A DNA stretch of 64,000 nucleotides from Agriterribacter humi. GTDB taxonomy: Bacteria > Bacteroidota > Bacteroidia > Chitinophagales > Chitinophagaceae. This document shows positions 29,958 to 38,604 of this stretch, piece by piece (the stretch's first letter is position 1; every line of letters begins with the position of its first letter). The stretch spans positions 496,001 to 560,000 of the forward strand of contig NZ_VOHQ01000001.1 in the NCBI RefSeq assembly GCF_009192765.1, written 5' to 3'. The notes beneath the pieces are model-generated. The model made no database searches, was not told the DNA's origin, and saw only the letters and a program-made list of their open reading frames with translations. A program made the translations under genes and the position numbers.

Positions 29958-31028
29958 TTACACCCGCGCCTTTCTAACTGCACGCGGCGCCGCGTTTGTC
30001 CACGACTTAAAGGCTTTTCTGAATGCGGTTGGGTTTGAGTATCCCAGAATATCTGAAACTTCCGATATTTTTATCGCGGGGTTTTGCATCAACTGGAAAG
30101 CAATATCCTTTCTTATTTCTCCGGCAACATCGCGAAAGGTAGTGCGCTCCTGCATCAGTCTTCGTTGCAGGCTGCGGGGCGTTATATCCAATGCTGATGC
30201 AGCTTCATCAATAGAAGGTATCCTTCCCTTGAATTGCATGAACAATACCTGTTTCAGATTTCCGCCGGTAGTGTTGTGTGCCAGCAGCGCCTGTTTTTCA
30301 GCAACCATCGAATTGAAACGTTCAAACATAGATTGATCACTTGTGAGTATAGGTGTTGCTATATCGCTTTTATTTAAAATGATCCGGTTCATATCCTGGT
30401 TAAAAAGTACGTCGCAGCCAAAAAATTGTTGATATGCTGAAATGTCCCTTTTTGGGTAGGCCAGCTCTATTCTTAACGGAACAATGCGCTTGCCTGTAAG
30501 CGCCGCGGATGTGTTGAGGGTTGATGCGAATAAAAAATCATTTGCCTGCCTTGCCGGTTCAGGATGCTTCATCAGCCACATCTTATTCTGTTCTATTTCA
30601 AGAACGGCAACATCATTGATTGTGTATCTATATGAAATCATTGGCGATACCATGTGGCCATACCTGCCTAACATTTGCAACGCCTGGTCAAGATCTTTAC
30701 AACTTTGGATCAAAAAACCAACCATGCCGTGAAGTAGTTTTGGCGTGCCGATACCTATATGCAAGCCGATCAATGGATCGCCTGTAAGCTTTAAAAGAGG
30801 CACCCATATCAACGCTGCTTTTTCCCATTCAACCATTTTTTCTGAGTCGCCCATCTCATCACCATTGATCTGCGACATTTGGCAAAGTGCGTCAAATGCC
30901 GCCCCGAATGAAGTAGCTGTTTGAAAGACGGTGCGTATGACTGTTCCCTGTAAGCCCATGGCGCAAAATATATCATTTCCGGAATAAAAGATGCCTTTTT
31001 CTGCCCGCAAAACCAAGGTCCTTTGCAT
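29958..31028 (-). CDS. AraC-family regulator with PF12625-type N-terminal domain
   Basis: The 356-residue protein has an N-terminal ligand-binding region of the arabinose-binding AraC type (residues about 20-210, with MVGFLIQSCKDLDQALQMLGRYGHMVSPMISY). A C-terminal AraC DNA-binding domain follows (SIDEAASALDITPRSLQRRLMQERTTFRDVAGEIRKDIAFQLM and ISEVSDILGYSNPTAFRKAFKSWTNAAPRAVRKAR). If the first Met is used, its start codon lies only 18 bp from that of the divergent membrane protein. Met24 (30959) would leave a normal gap and still keep the whole domain, so the true start is uncertain. It likely controls the divergent gene. Confidence 0.82.
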   Translation of the reverse strand: MQRTLVLRAEKGIFYSGNDIFCAMGLQGTVIRTVFQTATSFGAAFDALCQMSQINGDEMGDSEKMVEWEKAALIWVPLLKLTGDPLIGLHIGIGTPKLLHGMVGFLIQSCKDLDQALQMLGRYGHMVSPMISYRYTINDVAVLEIEQNKMWLMKHPEPARQANDFLFASTLNTSAALTGKRIVPLRIELAYPKRDISAYQQFFGCDVLFNQDMNRIILNKSDIATPILTSDQSMFERFNSMVAEKQALLAHNTTGGNLKQVLFMQFKGRIPSIDEAASALDITPRSLQRRLMQERTTFRDVAGEIRKDIAFQLMQNPAIKISEVSDILGYSNPTAFRKAFKSWTNAAPRAVRKARV

Positions 31029-31046
31029 TCTAAAATTACAAATATT

Positions 31047-31691
31047 ATGGACACACGTAAAAGCATGTTTTTAAAAAAGTGGGTGACCGGAAACCTCCTC
31101 ATTTACCCAGGATTATTAGGCCTTTTGCACCCGCTGATTGCGCACGGATTTACCGGCGATCATGATAAGCTGTTGACAACGCCCCAGTTTATCATGCATA
31201 CCATTTCTATATTCATTTTTGTTTTCTTTCTTGCAGTTACGAGGAACAAGACATTTGAAAAAGTTGGAAAAAAGAAAACCCAGTCGGACACCTGGCCCTT
31301 TCTTTTCTTTACACCATGGATGTTCTGGCTGGGCTATTACACCCTCTTCGTACCGTTCGATATTCTTTTTTTGTTCCTGTCAATCGGTATCATCAATGCC
31401 ATACAACTAAGGCCGTTCGTCAAATCTCCCGCAAAATGGGTATGGCAATGTATACTTGGTTATTTGCTTGCGGCAGTTGCAGGTATTTTAATAGGGCTGG
31501 GTGCTTATCTCCGGTATTACAAAGACTTCCAGGGCATCTCCAGAGACCTTGCTACCTGGACATCCATCAGTATTCCTGCGGCATTCGTTGTTGCATATTA
31601 CTTCAGGTATATCCTGGGTAAGCAGATCCCGGCCGAAGACCGCCCGGCCATGACTTCCGAAAACAAACCGTCTTTCTCAAAGGTTGCGTGA
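31047..31691 (+). CDS. Multi-pass membrane protein of unknown function
   Basis: From ATG at 31047 the product has 214 residues and about five hydrophobic segments: WVTGNLLIYPGLLGLLHPLI, FIMHTISIFIFVFFLAV, TWPFLFFTPWMFWLGYYTLFVPFDILFLFLSIG, WQCILGYLLAAVAGILIGLGAYL and WTSISIPAAFVVAYYF. It should be an inner-membrane protein. I recognise no family motif. Divergence from an AraC regulator suggests regulation by it. Confidence 0.65.
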   Translation: MDTRKSMFLKKWVTGNLLIYPGLLGLLHPLIAHGFTGDHDKLLTTPQFIMHTISIFIFVFFLAVTRNKTFEKVGKKKTQSDTWPFLFFTPWMFWLGYYTLFVPFDILFLFLSIGIINAIQLRPFVKSPAKWVWQCILGYLLAAVAGILIGLGAYLRYYKDFQGISRDLATWTSISIPAAFVVAYYFRYILGKQIPAEDRPAMTSENKPSFSKVA

Positions 31692-31726
31692 AAACTTTTA
31701 ATCATTAAACCCATAAAATATTCCAC

Positions 31727-32069
31727 ATGAAATACCAAACATTCAATTGGCTATTGCCATTTATATGCAGTGTGGTTGTAATCGCCTGTAGCAAAAAATG
31801 CTGGCTTGCCCGAGGCTCCTGCCACGGGAAACAAGAATGACGTTGTAACAGGTATTGTTACCGACTCTAGAAACCTTCCCGTGAAAGATGCTGCCATCAC
31901 GATTGAACATATGGTGTGGTACAATAGTTACTTTATCGCTTCCAGTAATGTATCCAAAGATCATTCATATTCGTTCTGTTGGGACAGTAAACTGATAAGC
32001 GATTTATCGATGAGGATATATTCTGTTGCCAGCATAGCAAAAAACCGCCTGTGCTTGTTGCACAACTAA
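31727..32069 (+). pseudogene. Frameshifted lipoprotein with carboxypeptidase-regulatory-like domain
   Basis: The ATG at 31727 starts a lipoprotein signal (MKYQTFNWLLPFICSVVVIAC). The frame is lost at a run of six A (31793-31798): the same frame ends soon after, whereas the next frame continues as NAGLPEAPATGNKNDVVTGIVTDSRNLPVKDAAITIEHMVWYNSYFIASS. That is the start of a CarboxypepD_reg-like beta domain. The C-terminus then decays and stops at 32069, well short of usual homologues. I read it as a remnant; a sequencing error in the A-run could explain the frameshift but not the truncation. Confidence 0.55.
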
Positions 32070-32127
32070 GATACTCACACTGTGTTAATGAAGCAATAAA
32101 TAGAATAATTTTTGCAATAGATAATTC

Positions 32128-32570
32128 ATGCAAGGCAAAAAACATTTAACCGAAAAACTGTTTTTGAGTTTTCAACTAAGCCAGCGGGTGCCTGCCGATA
32201 ATTTTTACCGGCGCTTAAAGGATCAACTGGATTTGCACTTTGTGTATAAAAGCACTAAAAAATATTACGGTATGGAAGAGCAACAAAGCATCGACCCTGT
32301 TGTATTCTTTAAACTGACGTATAAAATTCTTCAAAATAATTTGGATAAGCTCTCAGATCTTGAATTTGTGTTTACAAAGACCGATACACTGGAGAAACAA
32401 GAGTTGGTAAAGCTGGGGTTCGAGCAAAATCTTTACTATCAGGGGTGTATCGAACCCCAACGATGATAGATTTACTTGCCTATAATTCCCATATAATGAA
32501 GGAGAAAGGGTTACTTATGTACAATAAAAAGCGGGAGAATTTTTCAATTCCCCCGCTCAGCGGAGAGTGA
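32128..32570 (+). pseudogene. Chimeric remnant: IS1182-type transposase start joined to serine recombinase tail
   Basis: Residues 1-63 (MQGKKHLTEKLFLSFQLSQR then VPADNFYRRLKDQLDLHFVY and EQQSIDPVVFFKL) match the N-terminus of IS1182-family transposases. From about 32317 the sequence changes to NNLDKLSDLEFVFTKTDTLE then KQELVKLGFEQNLYYQG. After a lost G in the G-run at 32442-32445 it continues in the next frame as VYRTPTMIDLLAYNSHIMKE then KGLLMYNKKRENFSIPPLSGE. That is the typical C-terminus of Bacteroidota serine recombinases. Its stop codon (32568-32570) lies inside the 3' end of the tRNA-Ser gene. The fused frame itself ends at 32466. The recombinase catalytic domain is gone. Confidence 0.6.
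32524..32557 (-). terminator. Terminator of tRNA-Ser
   Basis: A 12-bp stem with one mismatch (32530-32541 against 32546-32557) is followed on the minus strand by TTTTTATTGT. It begins four bases after the tRNA 3' end. Confidence 0.8.
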
Positions 32571-32645
32571 GGGATTCGAACCCCCGGACCTGTTACAGTC
32601 AACGGTTTTCAAGACCGCCGCGTTCGACCGCTCTGCCAACTCTCC
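32561..32645 (-). tRNA. tRNA-Ser(TGA)
   Basis: On the minus strand the gene runs GGAGAGT...ACTCTCCG, giving a seven-pair acceptor stem and discriminator G. The anticodon loop CTTGAAA lies in a GCGGT/ACCG stem with anticodon TGA. A long variable arm typical of class II tRNAs is present, and the T-loop is GGGTTCGAATCCC. Length is 85 bases without encoded CCA. The 3' end overlaps the stop codon of the recombinase remnant and is duplicated at 28516. Confidence 0.93.
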
Positions 32646-33052
32646 GGCGCAAAAATAGGCTCGTACCGCTAATTGGCAAAAACTTATTCAATAATATTTT
32701 CCGCCTGAAACGCTAAACAAAAAAGACTGCCTTGATGTTATCAGCTTTGGTGTAGGAGTATAGGGTCGTAAGGTGTATGTACTTAGCTGTAGCATTACTA
32801 ATACGACCGGTTGCCACAGTTTATCCCATACTTTAGTCAGGACTCGCTTGTGCCACAACAACTCTATGCTGCTTTTGCCTCGCTTCTGCTGCCCGCCCGC
32901 CTGCCCGACTGAGCCATTCAGGCGTGGATGACACCAGTCGGACGGGGGCTGGCGTTCGGACAGGTTGATGTGCTCTGCCCATCCAGCCCACATACGCAAC
33001 AACAGCGAAACTGGAACACCGATGGTGGAAAAAAATAGAGGTCAGTAACAAA
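32646..33052. other. Intergenic stretch without recognised genes
   Basis: No coding pattern is convincing. A GC-rich imperfect palindrome sits at about 32885-32950, with CGCCTG...CAGGCG and CCGACT...AGTCGG nested arms. It is comparable to other dispersed hairpins in the window. Confidence 0.35.
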
Positions 33053-33208
33053 CTATTCTCCGGGTTGTTTGCTTCGGGCAATGGTATTTGTCTTTTTCCA
33101 CTTATTGGGTGTAGGCAGCAGAATCAGATTTGCCTTAACATATCTTTCGGGTTCAATGCCCATGGTATAAGTGTATTTATTATTACAGCCTGCTACAGCA
33201 GCTATCAA
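33053..33208 (-). CDS. Possible very small lipoprotein or its remnant
   Basis: A minus-strand frame reads ...FVLIAAVAGCNNKYTYTMGI then EPERYVKANLILLPTPNKWK before a TAG at 33053-33055. The hydrophobic stretch ending in VAGC is a short lipobox and the rest is protein-like. No ATG precedes it in frame; a TTG at 33206-33208 is the nearest start, and a stop lies just upstream. It may be a truncated lipoprotein gene. 33209-33389 shows nothing else. Confidence 0.3.
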   Translation of the reverse strand: MIAAVAGCNNKYTYTMGIEPERYVKANLILLPTPNKWKKTNTIARSKQPGE

Positions 33209-33389
33209 AACAAAACTTGTATAATACTAATCTAATTAGTATTTTTATGCTAACAAAATACGCAAACGCACAACATGTAAAAACCTTTATACCAGATTTG
33301 ACCATATGATCGTGGCTGGTCCCGGCAATGATCTTTCGGAAAAGTGTTGTTTGTAAGACAAGCATTTGAACTGTAAATTATTATAAAGA

Positions 33390-33707
33390 ATGGAAAAATT
33401 CACATTACTACCAAACACAGCAAAAAAATCAATCACAGGAGTGGAGATGGTTTCCCATAATCATACACCCATCTGCGAAATAGAAATCATTGATCTGCGC
33501 ATACAGCAGGCAAAAGAAGAAATGGATGATTTGCCTTCCAGGAGATTTCATTTTATTGACACAGACAAAACAGTATACCGGGCCGAACTGCGGGTTTTTG
33601 AGATGCAGGGAGAGGGAGATTTTAAAACGGTATTAAGAGATTGCTGGAACTGGTGGCTGGCGGGCAGGATCAGGGAAAATACATTGTACCAGCTCTCTGA
33701 AAATTAA
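33390..33707 (+). CDS. Hypothetical protein, 105 residues
   Basis: An ATG-initiated frame with even, soluble-protein composition (MEKFTLLPNTAKKSITGVEM..., C-terminus CWNWWLAGRIRENTLYQLSEN). There is no signal peptide, membrane segment or motif that I recognise. A GGAG-like site is not evident. It stands alone between two tRNA genes. I do not know the function. Confidence 0.5.
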   Translation: MEKFTLLPNTAKKSITGVEMVSHNHTPICEIEIIDLRIQQAKEEMDDLPSRRFHFIDTDKTVYRAELRVFEMQGEGDFKTVLRDCWNWWLAGRIRENTLYQLSEN

Positions 33708-33842
33708 GGGTTTAGTTTTCTCATGTAAATTTTGGCGCCGCGTTTCCACGCGGTGCTTTTTAAAGCCAGCGCTTTTGAAAGCCTTCGCTTCGCTCGCGGT
33801 CTTTTTTGCTTGTCCGCATTTGCAAGCAAGCTTGCATGCTTG

Positions 33843-33877
33843 CAAACAAAAAAGCCCTGCACTGCGTGCAAGGCTTT
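33843..33877 (-). terminator. Terminator of tRNA-Arg
   Basis: AGCCCTGCAC and GTGCAAGGCT (33853-33875) form a stem with a GC-rich top. On the minus strand TTTTTTGTTTGC follows. It starts two bases after the tRNA 3' end. Confidence 0.8.
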
Positions 33878-33878
33878 G

Positions 33879-33952
33879 TGACCCCGTCAGGATTCAAACC
33901 TGAAACCTTCTGATCCGTAGTCAGATGCTCTATTCAATTGAGCTACGGGGCC
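33879..33952 (-). tRNA. tRNA-Arg(ACG)
   Basis: Minus-strand GGCCCCG...CGGGGTC with discriminator A forms the acceptor stem. The D-arm is GCTC-AATTGAATA-GAGC, the anticodon loop CTACGGA (ACG) lies in a TCTGA/TCAGA stem, and the T-loop is GGTTTGAATCC. The length is 74 bases. It is preceded in the direction of transcription by three 101-bp tandem partial copies of itself. Confidence 0.93.
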
Positions 33953-34255
33953 AGTTAAGTAAACGATCAACGAAAAAACTTTAAACCTTTCTGATCCGTA
34001 GTCTGATGCTCCCTGCCTACCGGCAGGCAGGTATTCAATTGAGCTACGGGGCCAGTTAAGTAAGCGATCAACAAAAAAACTTCAAACCTTTCTGATCCGT
34101 AGTCTGATGCTCCCTGCCTACCGGCAGGCAGGTATTCAATTGAGCTACGGGGCCAGTTAAGTAAACGATCAACAAAAGAACTTAAAAACCTTCTGATCCG
34201 TAGTCTGATGCTCCCTGCCTACCGGCAGGCAGGTATTCAATTGAGCTACGGGGCC
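33953..34255 (-). repeat. Three exact 101-bp tandem units, each a partial tRNA-Arg with a palindrome in the D-loop
   Basis: 303 bases make three units (33953-34053, 34054-34154, 34155-34255) that differ at only a few positions. Each holds, on the minus strand, the 5' acceptor strand, D-arm, anticodon arm and variable region of the adjacent tRNA-Arg. The T-arm and 3' acceptor strand are replaced by an A/T-rich spacer. In each unit the palindrome CCTGCCTACCGGCAGGCAGG (34012-34031 in unit 1) is inserted at the 3' edge of the D-loop, leaving the D-stem arms intact. All three share one substitution in the anticodon stem (TCTGA to TCAGA), which unpairs it. They cannot be functional tRNAs. Confidence 0.85.
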
Positions 34256-34527
34256 CTCTTTTCTGTATTCGGGCGGCAAAGATAAGCCGGCATACTAAAA
34301 ATGCCAAAAGAATAATAAGCAAATCAATGGAACCTGAGCAGTTAGCTTTGAGCCATCAGATTAGCTAAAGTATACTAACAACAAAGGGATAAAATTACTA
34401 ACGATGAGGCTTGGTAATCCTTCTCTCACCACTCCTCCTGAGCAGTCAGCCTTCAGCCCTCAGCAATCAGCTACAGTATACTAACGATGCAGTGATAATC
34501 CTCCTCTCACCACTCACCACTTACTTC
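34256..34527. other. Intergenic stretch with dispersed CAGTCAGC/CTGAGCAGTCAGC repeats
   Basis: No gene is seen. Two imperfect copies of an AGC-rich block ending AGTATACTAAC (about 34332-34380 and 34439-34486) are present. These low-complexity blocks recur elsewhere in the window (45330-45420). Confidence 0.45.
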
Positions 34528-36435
34528 TCAATAATGCCATCTTACAAACGCTTCCATTGCCGCATATTTAATGAGTCCCAGTTGGGCATACAAATCAGCA
34601 GTATTGGCATTGCGCTCTTCCGCCCGTTGCCAGAACTCACGGGCATCTGTACCCTGGAATGGAACAGAATCTTTTTGCGACTGGTGTATGAAAATACCAA
34701 AACGTTTTTTAAGCACCTGCTCGGGGCTCATGGGTATCGCCATTTCTATTTCGGTAATATCCCACTCCTGCCATGCGCCTTTATACAGCCACACCCAGCA
34801 ATCTTTGACCCATTCATCTCCCGCCGCCTTAATTCTCTTGAGCGATTCAAAAACAATTTCAAGACACACTTTATGCGTACCGTGCGGATCGGCCAGGTCG
34901 CCGGCACAATATACCTGCTGTGGTTTTAACTCACGTAATAGTTTCATGGTTAGTTGCACATCCTCTTCGCCCATCGGATTTTTTTCAATGGTGCCTGTTT
35001 CATAAAAAGGCAGGTTCTGAAAATGCGCCCGCTCATCTCCAACTCCCACATACCGGCAGGTAGCCTTGGCTTCACACCTGCGGATAAGCCCTTTAATATT
35101 CCTTATTTCGGCGGTGTCTGTCTGCCTGGATTTTTTCTGTGCAAAATATTCACGAGCTTCTCCTGATATTTCTTTAGATTTTTTACTGTCAATGCCAAAC
35201 ATATCCTCAAATCCAACTGCAAAGTCCAGGAACCGGGTTACAAATTCATCGGTAACCGCAATATTGCCCGAGGTTTGGTAGGCTACATGCACTTCATGCC
35301 CCTGGTCGTGCAGGCGCTGAAAAGTACCCCCCATGGAAATGATATCGTCATCGGGGTGAGGGGAAAATATAACCACTTTTTTAGGATAGGGCGTTGACCT
35401 TTCGGGATGTTGCGGAATATCCGAATTGGGCTTGCCCCCGGGCCAGCCGGTAATGCTATCGCGCAGCATATAAAATACCTGCAGGTTAATTTCATATACG
35501 TCACCTTTTTCCACCAGCAGATCACCCAAACCATTATCGGTATAATCGCTGTTGGTTAAGCTCAGCACAGGCTTATTTAATTTGATAGCCGCATTAATTA
35601 CTGCCCGGCGGATGAGCTTGGGCGTCCACTCGCAATCGCCGGTAAGCCAGGGTGATTTAATACGGGTAAGTTCTGAAGCCGCCAGTTCGTCCAAAACAAA
35701 AACGCAATTATCATGGTTCTGTAATAAGGAAGCAGGAATGGATTCCGTGATATTATCCTCGGCAGCGGCTTTTACTACCGGGGCTTTAAACTGCCCCCAG
35801 GCCATCAGCAATATTTTCTTTGCTTTCATAATGGTGCTTATTCCTGCTGTAATGGCCAGGCGGGGCACCTGTGAAATATTGACGAACTCGTACGAATTGG
35901 CTAACCGTGTTGAATTTTCAAGTGTTACCAGCCTTGTTTTGGAATATACACTCGATCCGGGTTCATTAAACCCAATATGCCCGTTTACACCAATGCCCAG
36001 TATTTGCAAGTCAATACCACCAGCTTCTTCAATCATTTGCTCATACCGGATGCAATATTCTTTCACTCTTTCCTTTGGCCATTCTCCACTGGGTATATGA
36101 CAGTTGTTTTGGTCTATATCAATATGATCGAAAAGATTAACCTTCATGAAGCGATGATAACTCTGCAACGCATTCTTATCAATAGGATAATATTCATCTA
36201 AATTAAAGACAACCACATTTTTAAAACTTACGCCTTCTTCCCTATGCAGCCGGATCAGTTCGGCATATAGCGTTTTAGGAGTAGAGCCCGTTGCCAGTCC
36301 CAAAACACAGAGCTTACCCTGCGATTGCCTGTCTTTAATAAGGTCGGCAACTTCGCGGGCCGCAAACCGGGATCCTGCCTTGAAATCCGGGAATATCTGG
36401 CAGGAAATTTTCTCAAAAGAATCAACCATACTCAT
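34528..36435 (-). CDS. nagB: Glucosamine-6-phosphate deaminase fused to LmbE/PIG-L-type deacetylase domain
   Basis: Residues 1-265 are a NagB domain: GLATGSTP phosphate loop at 46-53, FNLDEYYP with Asp80/Glu81, and NGHIGFNEPGS with His153 and Glu158. It converts glucosamine 6-phosphate to fructose 6-phosphate and ammonia. Residues 350-635 form an LmbE/PIG-L domain with the zinc motif PHPDDD at 359-364 and the distal DPHGTH at 516-521. That domain usually removes acetyl groups from N-acetylglucosaminyl compounds. Fusions of this size are common in Bacteroidota. The second domain might supply the first with deacetylated substrate, which is inference. The gene stands alone; Met3 is an alternative start. 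Confidence 0.85.
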   Translation of the reverse strand: MSMVDSFEKISCQIFPDFKAGSRFAAREVADLIKDRQSQGKLCVLGLATGSTPKTLYAELIRLHREEGVSFKNVVVFNLDEYYPIDKNALQSYHRFMKVNLFDHIDIDQNNCHIPSGEWPKERVKEYCIRYEQMIEEAGGIDLQILGIGVNGHIGFNEPGSSVYSKTRLVTLENSTRLANSYEFVNISQVPRLAITAGISTIMKAKKILLMAWGQFKAPVVKAAAEDNITESIPASLLQNHDNCVFVLDELAASELTRIKSPWLTGDCEWTPKLIRRAVINAAIKLNKPVLSLTNSDYTDNGLGDLLVEKGDVYEINLQVFYMLRDSITGWPGGKPNSDIPQHPERSTPYPKKVVIFSPHPDDDIISMGGTFQRLHDQGHEVHVAYQTSGNIAVTDEFVTRFLDFAVGFEDMFGIDSKKSKEISGEAREYFAQKKSRQTDTAEIRNIKGLIRRCEAKATCRYVGVGDERAHFQNLPFYETGTIEKNPMGEEDVQLTMKLLRELKPQQVYCAGDLADPHGTHKVCLEIVFESLKRIKAAGDEWVKDCWVWLYKGAWQEWDITEIEMAIPMSPEQVLKKRFGIFIHQSQKDSVPFQGTDAREFWQRAEERNANTADLYAQLGLIKYAAMEAFVRWHY

Positions 36436-36627
36436 GATCAGTTAGAATTTAGATATTTTGATTGTTTCAATAATAATTCATGGGAGGAAACTGCAAGATA
36501 GGAGTAAAAATGCATTCATTTTATATCGGGCAAAATTTTGGACAAACGTTTGTGGATGGCTATCTTTATTGTCCTTCCCGTTCCATAAATCCCTGTAGAA
36601 ATATCAATGATCGCTTAAACAATTTTT

Positions 36628-37368
36628 ATGAAACACTTGCCACAGCATATCACAAAAGCAGTTATCCTGATTTTCTTACTCGCGGGTTTTGCTATTCCAA
36701 AAAATTTTTCGAACGGATACGCTGATTCCGCAATGCTGAATGGCGCCTGGCACAGCACTGCTGGCAGCATTGAGCAGAGCTTTATTATAGCAGATGGTTA
36801 TTGTATGCTTGCAAAATACGACAAAGCCAATAAAAAATTCATACACAGCTTCGGAGGACCGATAACCCGTGCTAACAACAAAATTAGCCTTAAGGTTGAA
36901 TTTAACAGCAGCGACAAAGCCCAGGTGGGCAAAACAATGGATTATAATTTTTCCGTCAGTAGTAATATACTTACCAGCAATATAGGCGGCGCAAAAGCGG
37001 AATGGCAAAGAACGGATGATGGTAAAAGTGATTTAGCCGGCAACTGGCGTATTACACAGCGAAAACAGGGAGATAAAATGGGTGATATGCCCCTGCGCGC
37101 AAGAAGAACCCTGAAACTTTTAACCGGAACACGTTTTCAATGGGCTGCCATTAATATAGAAACGGGAGAATTTTCCGGAACAGGCGGCGGCACATATACC
37201 TTTACCAACGGGAAATATACAGAGCACATTGAATTTTTTTCACGCGATAGTACCAGAGTGGGGGCTTCTTTGAGCTTTGATGGAAAAATTGAAAATGGAA
37301 ACTGGATCCACTCCGGTTTAAGTTCCAAAGGCGATCCGATATATGAAATATGGTCGAGGATGAAGTAG
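36628..37368 (+). CDS. Secreted protein of unknown function
   Basis: The 246-residue product has a signal peptide (AVILIFLLAGFAIPKNFSNGYA). The mature part is made of beta-strand-like segments and looks like two lipocalin-like halves (LNGAWHSTAGSIEQSFIIADGYCML and LAGNWRITQRKQGDKMGDM). The two halves resemble each other in layout, each starting with L-x-G-x-W and a sequence that could close a barrel. I recognise no named family. No operon partner is evident. Confidence 0.65.
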   Translation: MKHLPQHITKAVILIFLLAGFAIPKNFSNGYADSAMLNGAWHSTAGSIEQSFIIADGYCMLAKYDKANKKFIHSFGGPITRANNKISLKVEFNSSDKAQVGKTMDYNFSVSSNILTSNIGGAKAEWQRTDDGKSDLAGNWRITQRKQGDKMGDMPLRARRTLKLLTGTRFQWAAINIETGEFSGTGGGTYTFTNGKYTEHIEFFSRDSTRVGASLSFDGKIENGNWIHSGLSSKGDPIYEIWSRMK

Positions 37369-37578
37369 TGGGTGAGGAATACAAAGAACCAAAATAACAA
37401 GAACCAAGTAAAATAACAAATTAAAAAAAACCAAAGGGAAAGGAGAAAAGAGAGAAGTCAAAGAAGGAAATATCCGTCCCCTCGTTAGTAGTTACTGTCT
37501 GAATCTGATAGCGGAGAATCCGAAGTCCGAAGCGAAATGCAACCATAAACCACAAACTATAAACTATAAACTTGCATT
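37369..37578. other. Intergenic region with GAATACAAAGAACCAA-type dispersed repeat
   Basis: GAGGAATACAAAGAACCAA begins at about 37372 and recurs almost identically near 55738 and 55823. The remainder is A-rich and then CATAAACCACAAACTATAAAC-like. No gene. Confidence 0.45.
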
Positions 37579-38604
37579 TTACTTCCTCATCGAAGAAGCC
37601 CTCACTTCCATTGTGGTTTTTAGTTCAATGGTTTTGTACTGATGATGCAGGGTATTGTTCTCAATCATGGTTATCAGTAGCCTGGCGGCCGACTGCCCTA
37701 TATCAAATGTAGGCTGATGTATAGCTGTTAAAGAAGGATCAATAAAACGGCAAACGGGATTATCAAAAAAACCTACCATGGCTATATCTGCAGGTATCCG
37801 CAATTTCATTTCCTTCAATACTTCAAAACAACCTATCGCTATTCTTTCGCTGGTAGCCAATATAGCGTTTGGTTTTGGCGTGTTTTTTAATAATTTAACC
37901 AAAGCTTTTTTAATGTTGGCAAAATCAAAATCGCAGTGAACGATCCATTTTTTCTGAACCGGGATCTTATATTTTTTTAATGCTTCCATATACCCCTTCA
38001 TCCTGTTCTTTGTAACAGATAAATAAGGAGCCATGGTAACATGGGCTATACGGCGGTATCCCTGTTCCAGCAGGTGACAGGTAGCATCATAAGCCCCGCC
38101 TGCATCATCGGTAACTACACGGGGCGTATCAATTTCATCGCATATCCTGTCGAACATTACCACCGGAACGCCTTTATCAATGAGTTCAGCCAGGTGGGCG
38201 CCTTTTTGGGTTTCATTGGAAACAGAAATGATCAAACCATCTATTCTGCGCGATGCCAGCAGGTTGATATTGATTACCTCTCTTTCATATTTTTCATGAC
38301 TTTGGAAGATCACCACATGATAACCCATATTGTAGGCTATATCTTCAATACCCGCAATTACGGCCGAACAAAAATAATTGGCTATCTCAGGAACAATTAC
38401 GCCTATTACTTTACTTCTTTTTTCTTTTAATGAAAGCGCAATCGGGTTGGGCGTATATTTCAATTCCTTGGCCAGATCCTGTACCAGCTTACGTGTATCA
38501 TCATTAATTTCAGTACTTCCCCTCAACGCACGGGAAACCGTAGACGCGGAAATACCCAGCTTACGTGCAATATCTTTTATGGTTACCGGCTGTGGCGTTT
38601 GCAT
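37579..38604 (-). CDS. LacI-family transcriptional regulator
   Basis: I start it at the ATG at 38604 (MQTPQPVTIKDIARKLGISA...), which puts the helix-turn-helix at its usual N-terminal place. The 341-residue protein has the LacI DNA-binding domain (TIKDIARKLGISASTVSRALRGSTEINDDTRKLVQDLAKELKYTPNPIALSL). A periplasmic-binding-protein-like effector domain follows (SKVIGVIVPEIANYFCSAVIAGIEDIA ... DIAMVGFFDNPVCRFIDPSLTAI). It is divergent from the locus 2 genes and is the natural regulator for them, probably responding to a sugar or sugar acid. Confidence 0.9.
   Translation of the reverse strand: MQTPQPVTIKDIARKLGISASTVSRALRGSTEINDDTRKLVQDLAKELKYTPNPIALSLKEKRSKVIGVIVPEIANYFCSAVIAGIEDIAYNMGYHVVIFQSHEKYEREVININLLASRRIDGLIISVSNETQKGAHLAELIDKGVPVVMFDRICDEIDTPRVVTDDAGGAYDATCHLLEQGYRRIAHVTMAPYLSVTKNRMKGYMEALKKYKIPVQKKWIVHCDFDFANIKKALVKLLKNTPKPNAILATSERIAIGCFEVLKEMKLRIPADIAMVGFFDNPVCRFIDPSLTAIHQPTFDIGQSAARLLITMIENNTLHHQYKTIELKTTMEVRASSMRK

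Follow-up and report, generated by a model that had tools for sequence, protein, structure and literature searches.

Palindrome-marked partial tRNA copies upstream of tRNA-Arg(ACG) in Agriterribacter humi as a probable ORF-less form of a small tRNA-gene element

Introduction

The nearest known system to the arrangement reported here is SegB of phages T4 and T6, described in two reports as a homing endonuclease of the GIY-YIG type whose gene stands free in the tRNA region (PMC13096335; PMC2988022). SegB is reported to cut DNA, and in phage T6 the tandem amplification of a 718-bp unit that holds tRNA-Tyr with a shortened segB reportedly depends on it (PMC13096335); a wide range of tRNA isotypes is found near segB (PMC13096335; PMC2988022). 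We analysed a 64,000-nucleotide stretch of the Agriterribacter humi genome (the window), in which three partial tRNA copies, each split by a palindrome, precede the intact tRNA-Arg(ACG), together with related loci in other genomes. The two systems share a free-standing GIY-YIG gene beside tRNA genes. The genes studied here encode a GIY-YIG domain with conserved residues and lie outside introns and inteins, with no Rfam intron in eight loci and with the ORF of locus L241, among others, directly between tRNA copies. SegB belongs to phages and its reported repeat holds a full-length tRNA with a C-terminally shortened segB, whereas here we find bacterial chromosomes, palindrome-marked split tRNA copies, nuclease lineages that track tRNA identity, arrays without an ORF and, in one lineage, nuclease ORFs whose ends are read from the tRNA.

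Other known systems share single features with these loci. Rickettsia palindromic elements and REP/RAYT are short dispersed palindromic elements of bacteria. The palindrome described here resembles Rickettsia palindromic elements and REP in being about 20 bp long, dispersed through the genome and also present inside protein genes. Unlike them, it goes together with a GIY-YIG gene and occupies fixed positions in tRNA copies, and the element ORFs tested match GIY-YIG and not the Y1 (HUH) transposase. Group I introns with their homing endonucleases are insertions in tRNA genes that bring a homing-type nuclease and leave tRNA function intact. Here, however, the tRNA stays functional because part of its sequence is duplicated and not because of splicing, and we set such an intron aside as a candidate on the result that tRNA is the only Rfam match at gathering scores, both in the window and in eight chosen loci.

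Integrative islands with a tyrosine integrase sit at tRNA genes and carry a tRNA part that restores the gene. This restoring part is shared with the present loci; unlike the islands, the left-over copy here bears a palindrome, and the window units are 101 bp long and have no integrase ORF. We rejected a tRNA-targeting island for the array, as an integrase with att sites was not found and the 101-bp units contain no ORF of at least 60 aa in the ORF list for 30000-38000. SLX1 is a structure-specific repair nuclease. SLX1 and UPF0213 are single-domain GIY-YIG proteins and account for the seven solved-structure matches of our profile; unlike SLX1, the genes here form part of tRNA units. A literature search, in which subscription journals and bioRxiv were thinly covered, returned no description of bacterial chromosomes in which GIY-YIG genes accompany tRNA fragments marked by a palindrome.

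Results

Three units lie between a promoter motif and the intact tRNA

The intact tRNA-Arg(ACG) is located on the minus strand at 33878-33952 (ARAGORN; Rfam RF00005, 64.1 bits at 33879-33952), with a terminator-like hairpin and T run on its 3' side that we identified by eye (33848-33876, minus strand). An array of three 101-bp units on the same strand (33953-34255) lies between this tRNA and a promoter motif: unit 1, which is promoter-proximal (34155-34255), unit 2 (34054-34154) and unit 3, closest to the intact tRNA (33953-34053). Tandem Repeats Finder reports a period of 101 with 3.2 copies and 96% matches over 33931-34255, and together with ARAGORN and Rfam it confirms the three units that the earlier note, written from the sequence of the window, had placed before the tRNA. 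Upstream of unit 1 we find the -7-like motif TATCTTTG (34277-34284, minus strand), presumably of the Bacteroidota promoter type, accompanied by TTGGCA at 34302-34307. The upstream neighbour in the ORF listing, a 635-aa ORF on the minus strand (34528-36435) that we take from its sequence to be nagB-like, serves as a synteny anchor. No GIY-YIG gene is present in cis, as none of the genome's 13 PF01541 matches falls inside the window.

Each unit comprises tRNA nucleotides 1-22, a palindrome, tRNA nucleotides 23 to about 45-50, and a spacer of about 30 nt. The 20-bp palindrome reads CCTGCCTGCCGGTAGGCAGG on the minus strand (the plus-strand form had been given before) and separates tRNA nucleotides 22 and 23 at 34214-34233 in unit 1, 34113-34132 in unit 2 and 34012-34031 in unit 3, all on the minus strand. 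The insertion is clean, with no tRNA base lost. The exact 20-mer occurs four times in the 5.69-Mb genome, three of them in the array, and its read-backwards control does not occur at all; the recurrence of the palindrome in the array is not due to chance. We further note that the units share a change from TCTGA to TCAGA in the anticodon stem. The substitution itself had been pointed out before, along with the proposal that the 5' parts of the tRNA are retained in the units; this proposal holds for the letters of the D-stem but not fully for the anticodon arm, because the change places an A.A mismatch in the middle of its stem.

Short GIY-YIG genes adjoin palindrome-bearing tRNA copies

A search with the array DNA matched other palindrome-bearing tRNA pieces, several of which adjoin a short GIY-YIG gene. 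The window's genome has 13 GIY-YIG matches, and several of these adjoin copies of tRNA-Ala, Pro, Arg(CCG), Arg(TCT), Phe or Asn. At 12 of its 41 tRNA loci (both numbers include two palindrome-bearing pseudo-tRNAs), partial copies of the tRNA in question, some just 14-17 nt long, lie within 700 bp, compared to none of 41 with reversed tRNA sequences as a control. Across 12 genomes of the genus, 45 of 75 unique short GIY-YIG ORFs (ORFs below 60 aa dropped, duplicates removed by the last 90 nt) have a tRNA or tRNA fragment within 150 bp, every one on the same strand and none on the opposite strand; the other 30 are not tRNA-linked by this test. None of the 23 long GIY-YIG loci used as controls is near a tRNA on either strand, at a looser distance (about 700 bp, assumed positions) than the 150 bp applied to the short ORFs. 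These controls derive from 26 matches with open frames above 440 aa, three in G003 and G005 having been left out. None of the 75 short ORFs in the 12 genus genomes was assigned to tRNA-Arg(ACG), and the link between the window's array and a nuclease therefore rests on other genera and other tRNAs.

A seven-protein query of tRNA-Arg type was run against 84,980 species, each represented by one genome. It gave 284 relatives of one nuclease lineage, of which we kept the best 79; owing to the choice of query, these sample that lineage. An intact tRNA lies within 400 bp on the same strand in 73 of the 79, five have only a tRNA fragment and one (L284) has only the palindrome. One 95-nt tRNA query itself carries the palindrome, so that lone matches to it, as at L284, do not count as tRNA evidence; the opposite-strand matches stem from it. 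By record title these relatives (best 79 of 284) are nearly all Bacteroidota, with single records from Chlorobiota, Ignavibacteria, Patescibacteria and Nitrospiraceae. The strict 28-base junction of D-loop and palindrome is rare, being found in 4 of 395 phylum genomes. A phage-borne origin was tried for one lineage and rejected: a single locus was found in viral contigs, and a search of phages with one nuclease protein gave a single weak match.

A common order of parts at these loci is a tRNA 5' piece, the palindrome, the nuclease gene and the intact tRNA. At L241, a tRNA-Arg(ACG) locus outside the genus, the promoter motif is followed by tRNA nucleotides 1-22, the palindrome, about 10 tRNA nucleotides, the GIY-YIG ORF and the intact tRNA. 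In most members seen of the L241 lineage the end of the ORF is read from the tRNA, with the stop codon inside it. Other lineages place the nuclease behind the tRNA and its terminator, followed by a palindrome-bearing copy. Both layouts can be written as one segment at a tRNA point X|Y carrying the tRNA part that restoration would need. In other nuclease-bearing tRNA-Arg(ACG) loci outside the genus, the palindrome occupies the same point of the D-loop or a position adjoining it: L251 and L253 (shorter palindrome) and L264, whose tRNA is cut off by N. At L222, a further tRNA-Arg(ACG) locus outside the genus, a nuclease unit is followed by an ORF-less unit.

The position of the palindrome varies between tRNA families, and the break point is much the same for one tRNA across species. 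The commonest break points are 22|23 in Arg(ACG), 22|23 and 39|40 in Arg(TCT), 50|51 in Arg(CCG), 41|51 in Asp, 38|49 in Met, 23-26|36 in Asn and 27|36 in Ser (one locus). Inserts in split tRNA copies are able to form at least six pairs in 93% of 56 candidates, a set that includes a few second readings of one site, compared to 15% of shuffles. The tRNA-Arg(TCT) element of the window's genome uses the same D-loop site as the array, with a palindrome that differs by one base, and has a nuclease. Other ORF-less tandem arrays are found at tRNA-Ala (93 bp, three units), Leu (91 bp, two units), Asp (117 bp, two units) and Asn (93 bp, two units), and all of these loci also contain a nuclease gene.

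Nuclease lineages follow the tRNA on the tree

The GIY-YIG domain (PF01541) is present in all 14 chosen proteins, and the alignment retains invariant Y, Y, G, R, H, N and E columns, which we take to be the catalytic residues. PHROG 314 ('homing endonuclease') gives weak matches to four of the 14, and NCBIfam TIGR01453 (group I intron endonuclease) also matches four of the 14, the first at 24.1 bits, below the cut-off of 56.05. A known defence system was rejected as an identity, PADLOC yielding only weak 'homing endonuclease' and PDC-S14 matches to a few of the 14. pN/pS ranges from 0.00 to 0.31 in 11 chosen nuclease pairs, which indicates that the genes are kept as proteins.

The nuclease tree includes 66 domains (those below 50 aa dropped) over 96 columns, few for so many rows, and 39 rows carry a tRNA label of one of 13 kinds. 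The tRNA label changes 12 times on this tree, the minimum for 13 labels, compared to 26-34 changes in 500 shuffles; a first test had lent two second ORFs of tandem arrays their neighbour's label, and the 12 changes come from a repeat without those. Host labels, assigned by hand to the same 39 rows, change 27 times compared to 25-33 in 300 shuffles and thus give no host signal. As far as this tree places them, the nuclease lineages follow tRNA identity and not host. One exception is L061, which sits on a long branch: this nuclease, linked to tRNA-Phe in the window's genome, is placed away from the other tRNA-Phe nucleases. A separate clade of 18 rows (L056, L062, L090, L096 and others) is wholly unlinked to tRNAs and perhaps represents another partnership of GIY-YIG gene and repeat. 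By eye, L062 and L056 lie amid other dispersed repeats, of the GTCATTCCGA..GGAATCC and ACGTCATTACGAGACC types.

Unit number varies among relatives

For 27 genomes, each represented by one locus, we compared the DNA that precedes tRNA-Arg(ACG) and found the nagB-like C-terminal motif upstream of the tRNA at 11 of the 27. Four nagB-linked loci have no unit, and promoter motif and tRNA are 26-31 bp apart in them (G002, G009, G019 and G034). Four others, with the motif at 74-83 bp, have a remnant, which by eye is an anticodon-arm stretch in G004, G005 and G008 and only unmatched extra sequence in G003. Single units are found in the nagB-linked loci of G010 (motif at 128 bp) and G011 (137 bp), and the window locus has three units and the motif at 332 bp. 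The nagB end was not seen in G006, which has two units and the motif at 237 bp, or in G007, which has one palindrome-free unit and the motif at 112 bp; it was also not seen at the remaining 14 of the 27 loci, where the compared upstream stretch contains no unit. Since the G007 unit has no palindrome, the palindrome is either unneeded for a unit or was lost. A second locus of G001, at a contig end, has at least two complete units behind a gene end that by eye is nagB-like. The array that the earlier note had suggested seeking beside tRNA-Arg(ACG) in relatives is therefore present in some of them, in a number that varies from none through a remnant to one, two or three. In this comparison, which covered the ORF-less array upstream of this tRNA, both occupied and empty alleles are seen.

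Units are 95-100% identical within a genome (G000, which is the window's genome, G001 and G006) and 64-89% identical between five genomes. Based on these identities, the arrays seem to have been gained or homogenised separately in each genome. For the window, identity is 95-97% inside the array and 69-83% to the units of four other genomes, in agreement with the recent amplification or conversion suggested for it before.

A small tRNA-gene element as the favoured explanation

We consider it probable that the array derives from a small mobile element residing in tRNA genes and represents a version of it without the ORF, either non-autonomous or decayed. The complete form would consist of a short free-standing GIY-YIG gene at a fixed tRNA point X|Y, with a partial tRNA copy restoring one intact tRNA and a left-over copy marked by the palindrome; our estimate covers the mechanism of nuclease cutting and repair as well. 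The basis for the element is in sequence: its anatomy, the same-strand linkage of nuclease and tRNA, the lineages that track the tRNA, purifying selection, loci with and without units, and near-identical units. By analogy with SegB, the nuclease would cut a tRNA gene that lacks the mark, at X|Y or close to it. Repair templated by a copy with the palindrome would add a unit (palindrome-Y'-spacer-(nuclease)-X) and regenerate the tRNA, and the palindrome would spoil the target in marked, spent copies. Repeated rounds of cutting and repair would give tandem arrays, and loss of the ORF would leave arrays such as the window's, on which the tRNA-Arg(TCT) nuclease of the same genome could act in trans. 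One observation against this element is that the intact tRNA-Arg(ACG) retains the presumed nuclease target. The palindrome-free G007 unit, the occurrence of the palindrome away from tRNA genes, the short GIY-YIG ORFs and the tree clade without tRNA linkage, the two placements of tRNA-Phe nucleases and the rarity of the strict junction in the phylum sample count against it as well.

The main alternative, which we regard as unlikely, is a passive by-product, in which slippage or unequal crossing over duplicated the 5' end of the tRNA in part and in tandem, ordinary recombination homogenised the copies, and the palindrome, an unrelated repeat dispersed in the genome, can settle only in redundant copies, with the nuclease uninvolved. 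The identity within the array does fit simple recombination, none of the 75 genus nuclease ORFs is assigned to tRNA-Arg(ACG) and the G007 unit is palindrome-free. The palindrome is also dispersed elsewhere in the genome, including protein genes, and it may for that reason be an independent repeat. However, the clean 20-bp insertion at nucleotides 22|23, the near-constant break point for each tRNA across species, the nuclease genes adjoining the ORF-less Ala, Leu, Asp and Asn arrays, and the nuclease-bearing arrays at tRNA-Arg(ACG) in other genera all argue against it. The simple slippage by-product that had been offered for this locus seems insufficient as an explanation, given that similar architectures are found at roughly twelve different tRNAs and are tied to one nuclease family.

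The window array is part of a wide, orderly phenomenon. A broader reading, which we put forward tentatively and hold less firmly than the element itself, is that phylum-wide minimal mobile elements consist of one GIY-YIG gene or none, a tRNA piece and a palindrome; each lineage would home to one tRNA gene, rebuild it and mark spent targets, and ORF-less passengers would use antitermination to remain harmless to the essential tRNA. If true, this would explain the short GIY-YIG genes that abut tRNA genes in these genomes, and would identify a source of tandem broken tRNA copies and of false calls such as 'tRNA-Stop'. It would also describe a very small chromosomal homing element in which the choice of a given tRNA as target, the marking by palindrome and the protection of the host, through the restored tRNA and perhaps antitermination, are separately testable. 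In T6, SegB is reported to be able to amplify a tRNA segment, and a comparable outcome seems to have become fixed on many occasions in the chromosomes studied here.

A boxA-like motif and transcription through the array

The spacer of unit 1 contains the motif AAGTTCTTTT (34174-34183, minus strand), of the AG[CT]TCTT type that we take to be boxA. Its counterparts are altered and lack the C in unit 2 (AAGTTTTTTT, 34073-34082, minus strand) and in unit 3 (AAGTTTTTTC). The motif was chosen after inspecting spacers, and AG[CT]TCTT lies within the final 50 nt of a unit in 8 of the 16 ORF-less arrays (L101, L265 and 'Stop' pseudo-tRNAs excluded by hand), compared to a mean of 0.37 arrays in dinucleotide shuffles, none of 2000 reaching 8. 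Upstream of tRNAs without such a chain of units it occurs in 12 of 171 stretches, several of the 12 being, by eye, fragment-bearing loci or tRNA operons. We searched for 16S in the window's own genome without a match and used two genomes of the same genus instead. There the motif appears behind 16S as AAAGTTCTTTGACA and AAGCTCTTTGACA, with four and three matches in total; this DNA is AT-rich, contains the motif several times and is presumably the rRNA spacer.

That the units lie on the tRNA transcript, as the earlier note supposed, is made likely by the promoter motif, which stands 332 bp from the tRNA here and 26-31 bp from it in unit-free loci, and by the boxA-like motif in one spacer, which fits transcription through the array to the tRNA. 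In ORF-less arrays, the motif may keep RNA polymerase going through a long untranslated leader. These features could also be read as a selected leader, in which the structured array and boxA regulate or secure tRNA-Arg(ACG) transcription, for example by attenuation and antitermination. The position of the array between promoter motif and tRNA, the excess of the motif in ORF-less arrays and its recurrence behind 16S in two genus genomes are consistent with a leader. We nevertheless find it improbable, as some relatives have no unit or a remnant, units 2 and 3 carry changed forms of the motif, and it was not found in G006 and G011.

Predicted folds of the units

In the predicted minimum-energy fold the D-stem is absent in both units folded (two of the three), so that the suggestion of a D-stem left unbroken by the palindrome is true of the letters but not of the predicted structure. 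The predicted stability of these two units is not clearly better than that of shuffles (z of -1.39 and -0.93). Stable half-tRNA or decoy RNAs, proposed earlier as the output of the units, would titrate tRNA enzymes or tRNA-cutting toxins, and the units are probably transcribed with the tRNA. We nonetheless judge such RNAs very unlikely. The decoy proposal finds no support in the predicted fold or in conservation: beyond the unformed D-stem, the anticodon stem carries a mismatch, unit number is not conserved, and the position of the palindrome differs among tRNA families. The variation in unit number, the palindrome-free G007 unit and the ordinary predicted stability lean against a selected half-tRNA, and we set a functional half-tRNA RNA aside as a candidate, having found in these folds and loci neither a stable conserved fold nor a conserved copy number.

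Least credible of all is a collapse or expansion artefact of assembly: the tRNA-Arg(TCT) array of the same genome does run into the end of contig C33, and C11 begins inside a nuclease ORF, but the units here differ by several bases, the array sits within an 835-kb contig, and one to three units are found upstream of the same tRNA in other genomes.

Other arrays and palindrome sites

The tRNA-Arg(TCT) array of the window's genome contains tandem nuclease units and reaches contig ends (C33 end and C11 start; L058, L151), so that its length is a minimum; the nuclease ORF inside which C11 starts precedes the tRNA. Copies of tRNA-Arg(TCT) that carry a palindrome in the D-loop and a second one at the edge of the anticodon loop are found at L044 (G011:C448) and L040 (G006:C29).

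Among 14 protein-gene sites inspected, the palindrome lies inside long open frames at L004/L036 (375 aa, presumably gcvT-like) and L069 (402 aa), where it adds LPAGRQG-type peptides.

Three 96-bp tandem pseudo-tRNA-Thr copies are present in the window's genome at G000:C12:670530-670807 (L149, 1595-1872), with a palindrome replacing the anticodon arm. ARAGORN calls two of these copies 'tRNA-Stop(tta)', by eye a false suppressor call.

At L117 (G009:C34), at least three ORF-less repeats lie 3' of tRNA-Pro, the first two spaced 107 bp apart, with further and degenerate repeats seen by eye. Each has a palindrome, a tRNA 3' half and a terminator, a mirror image of the window array.
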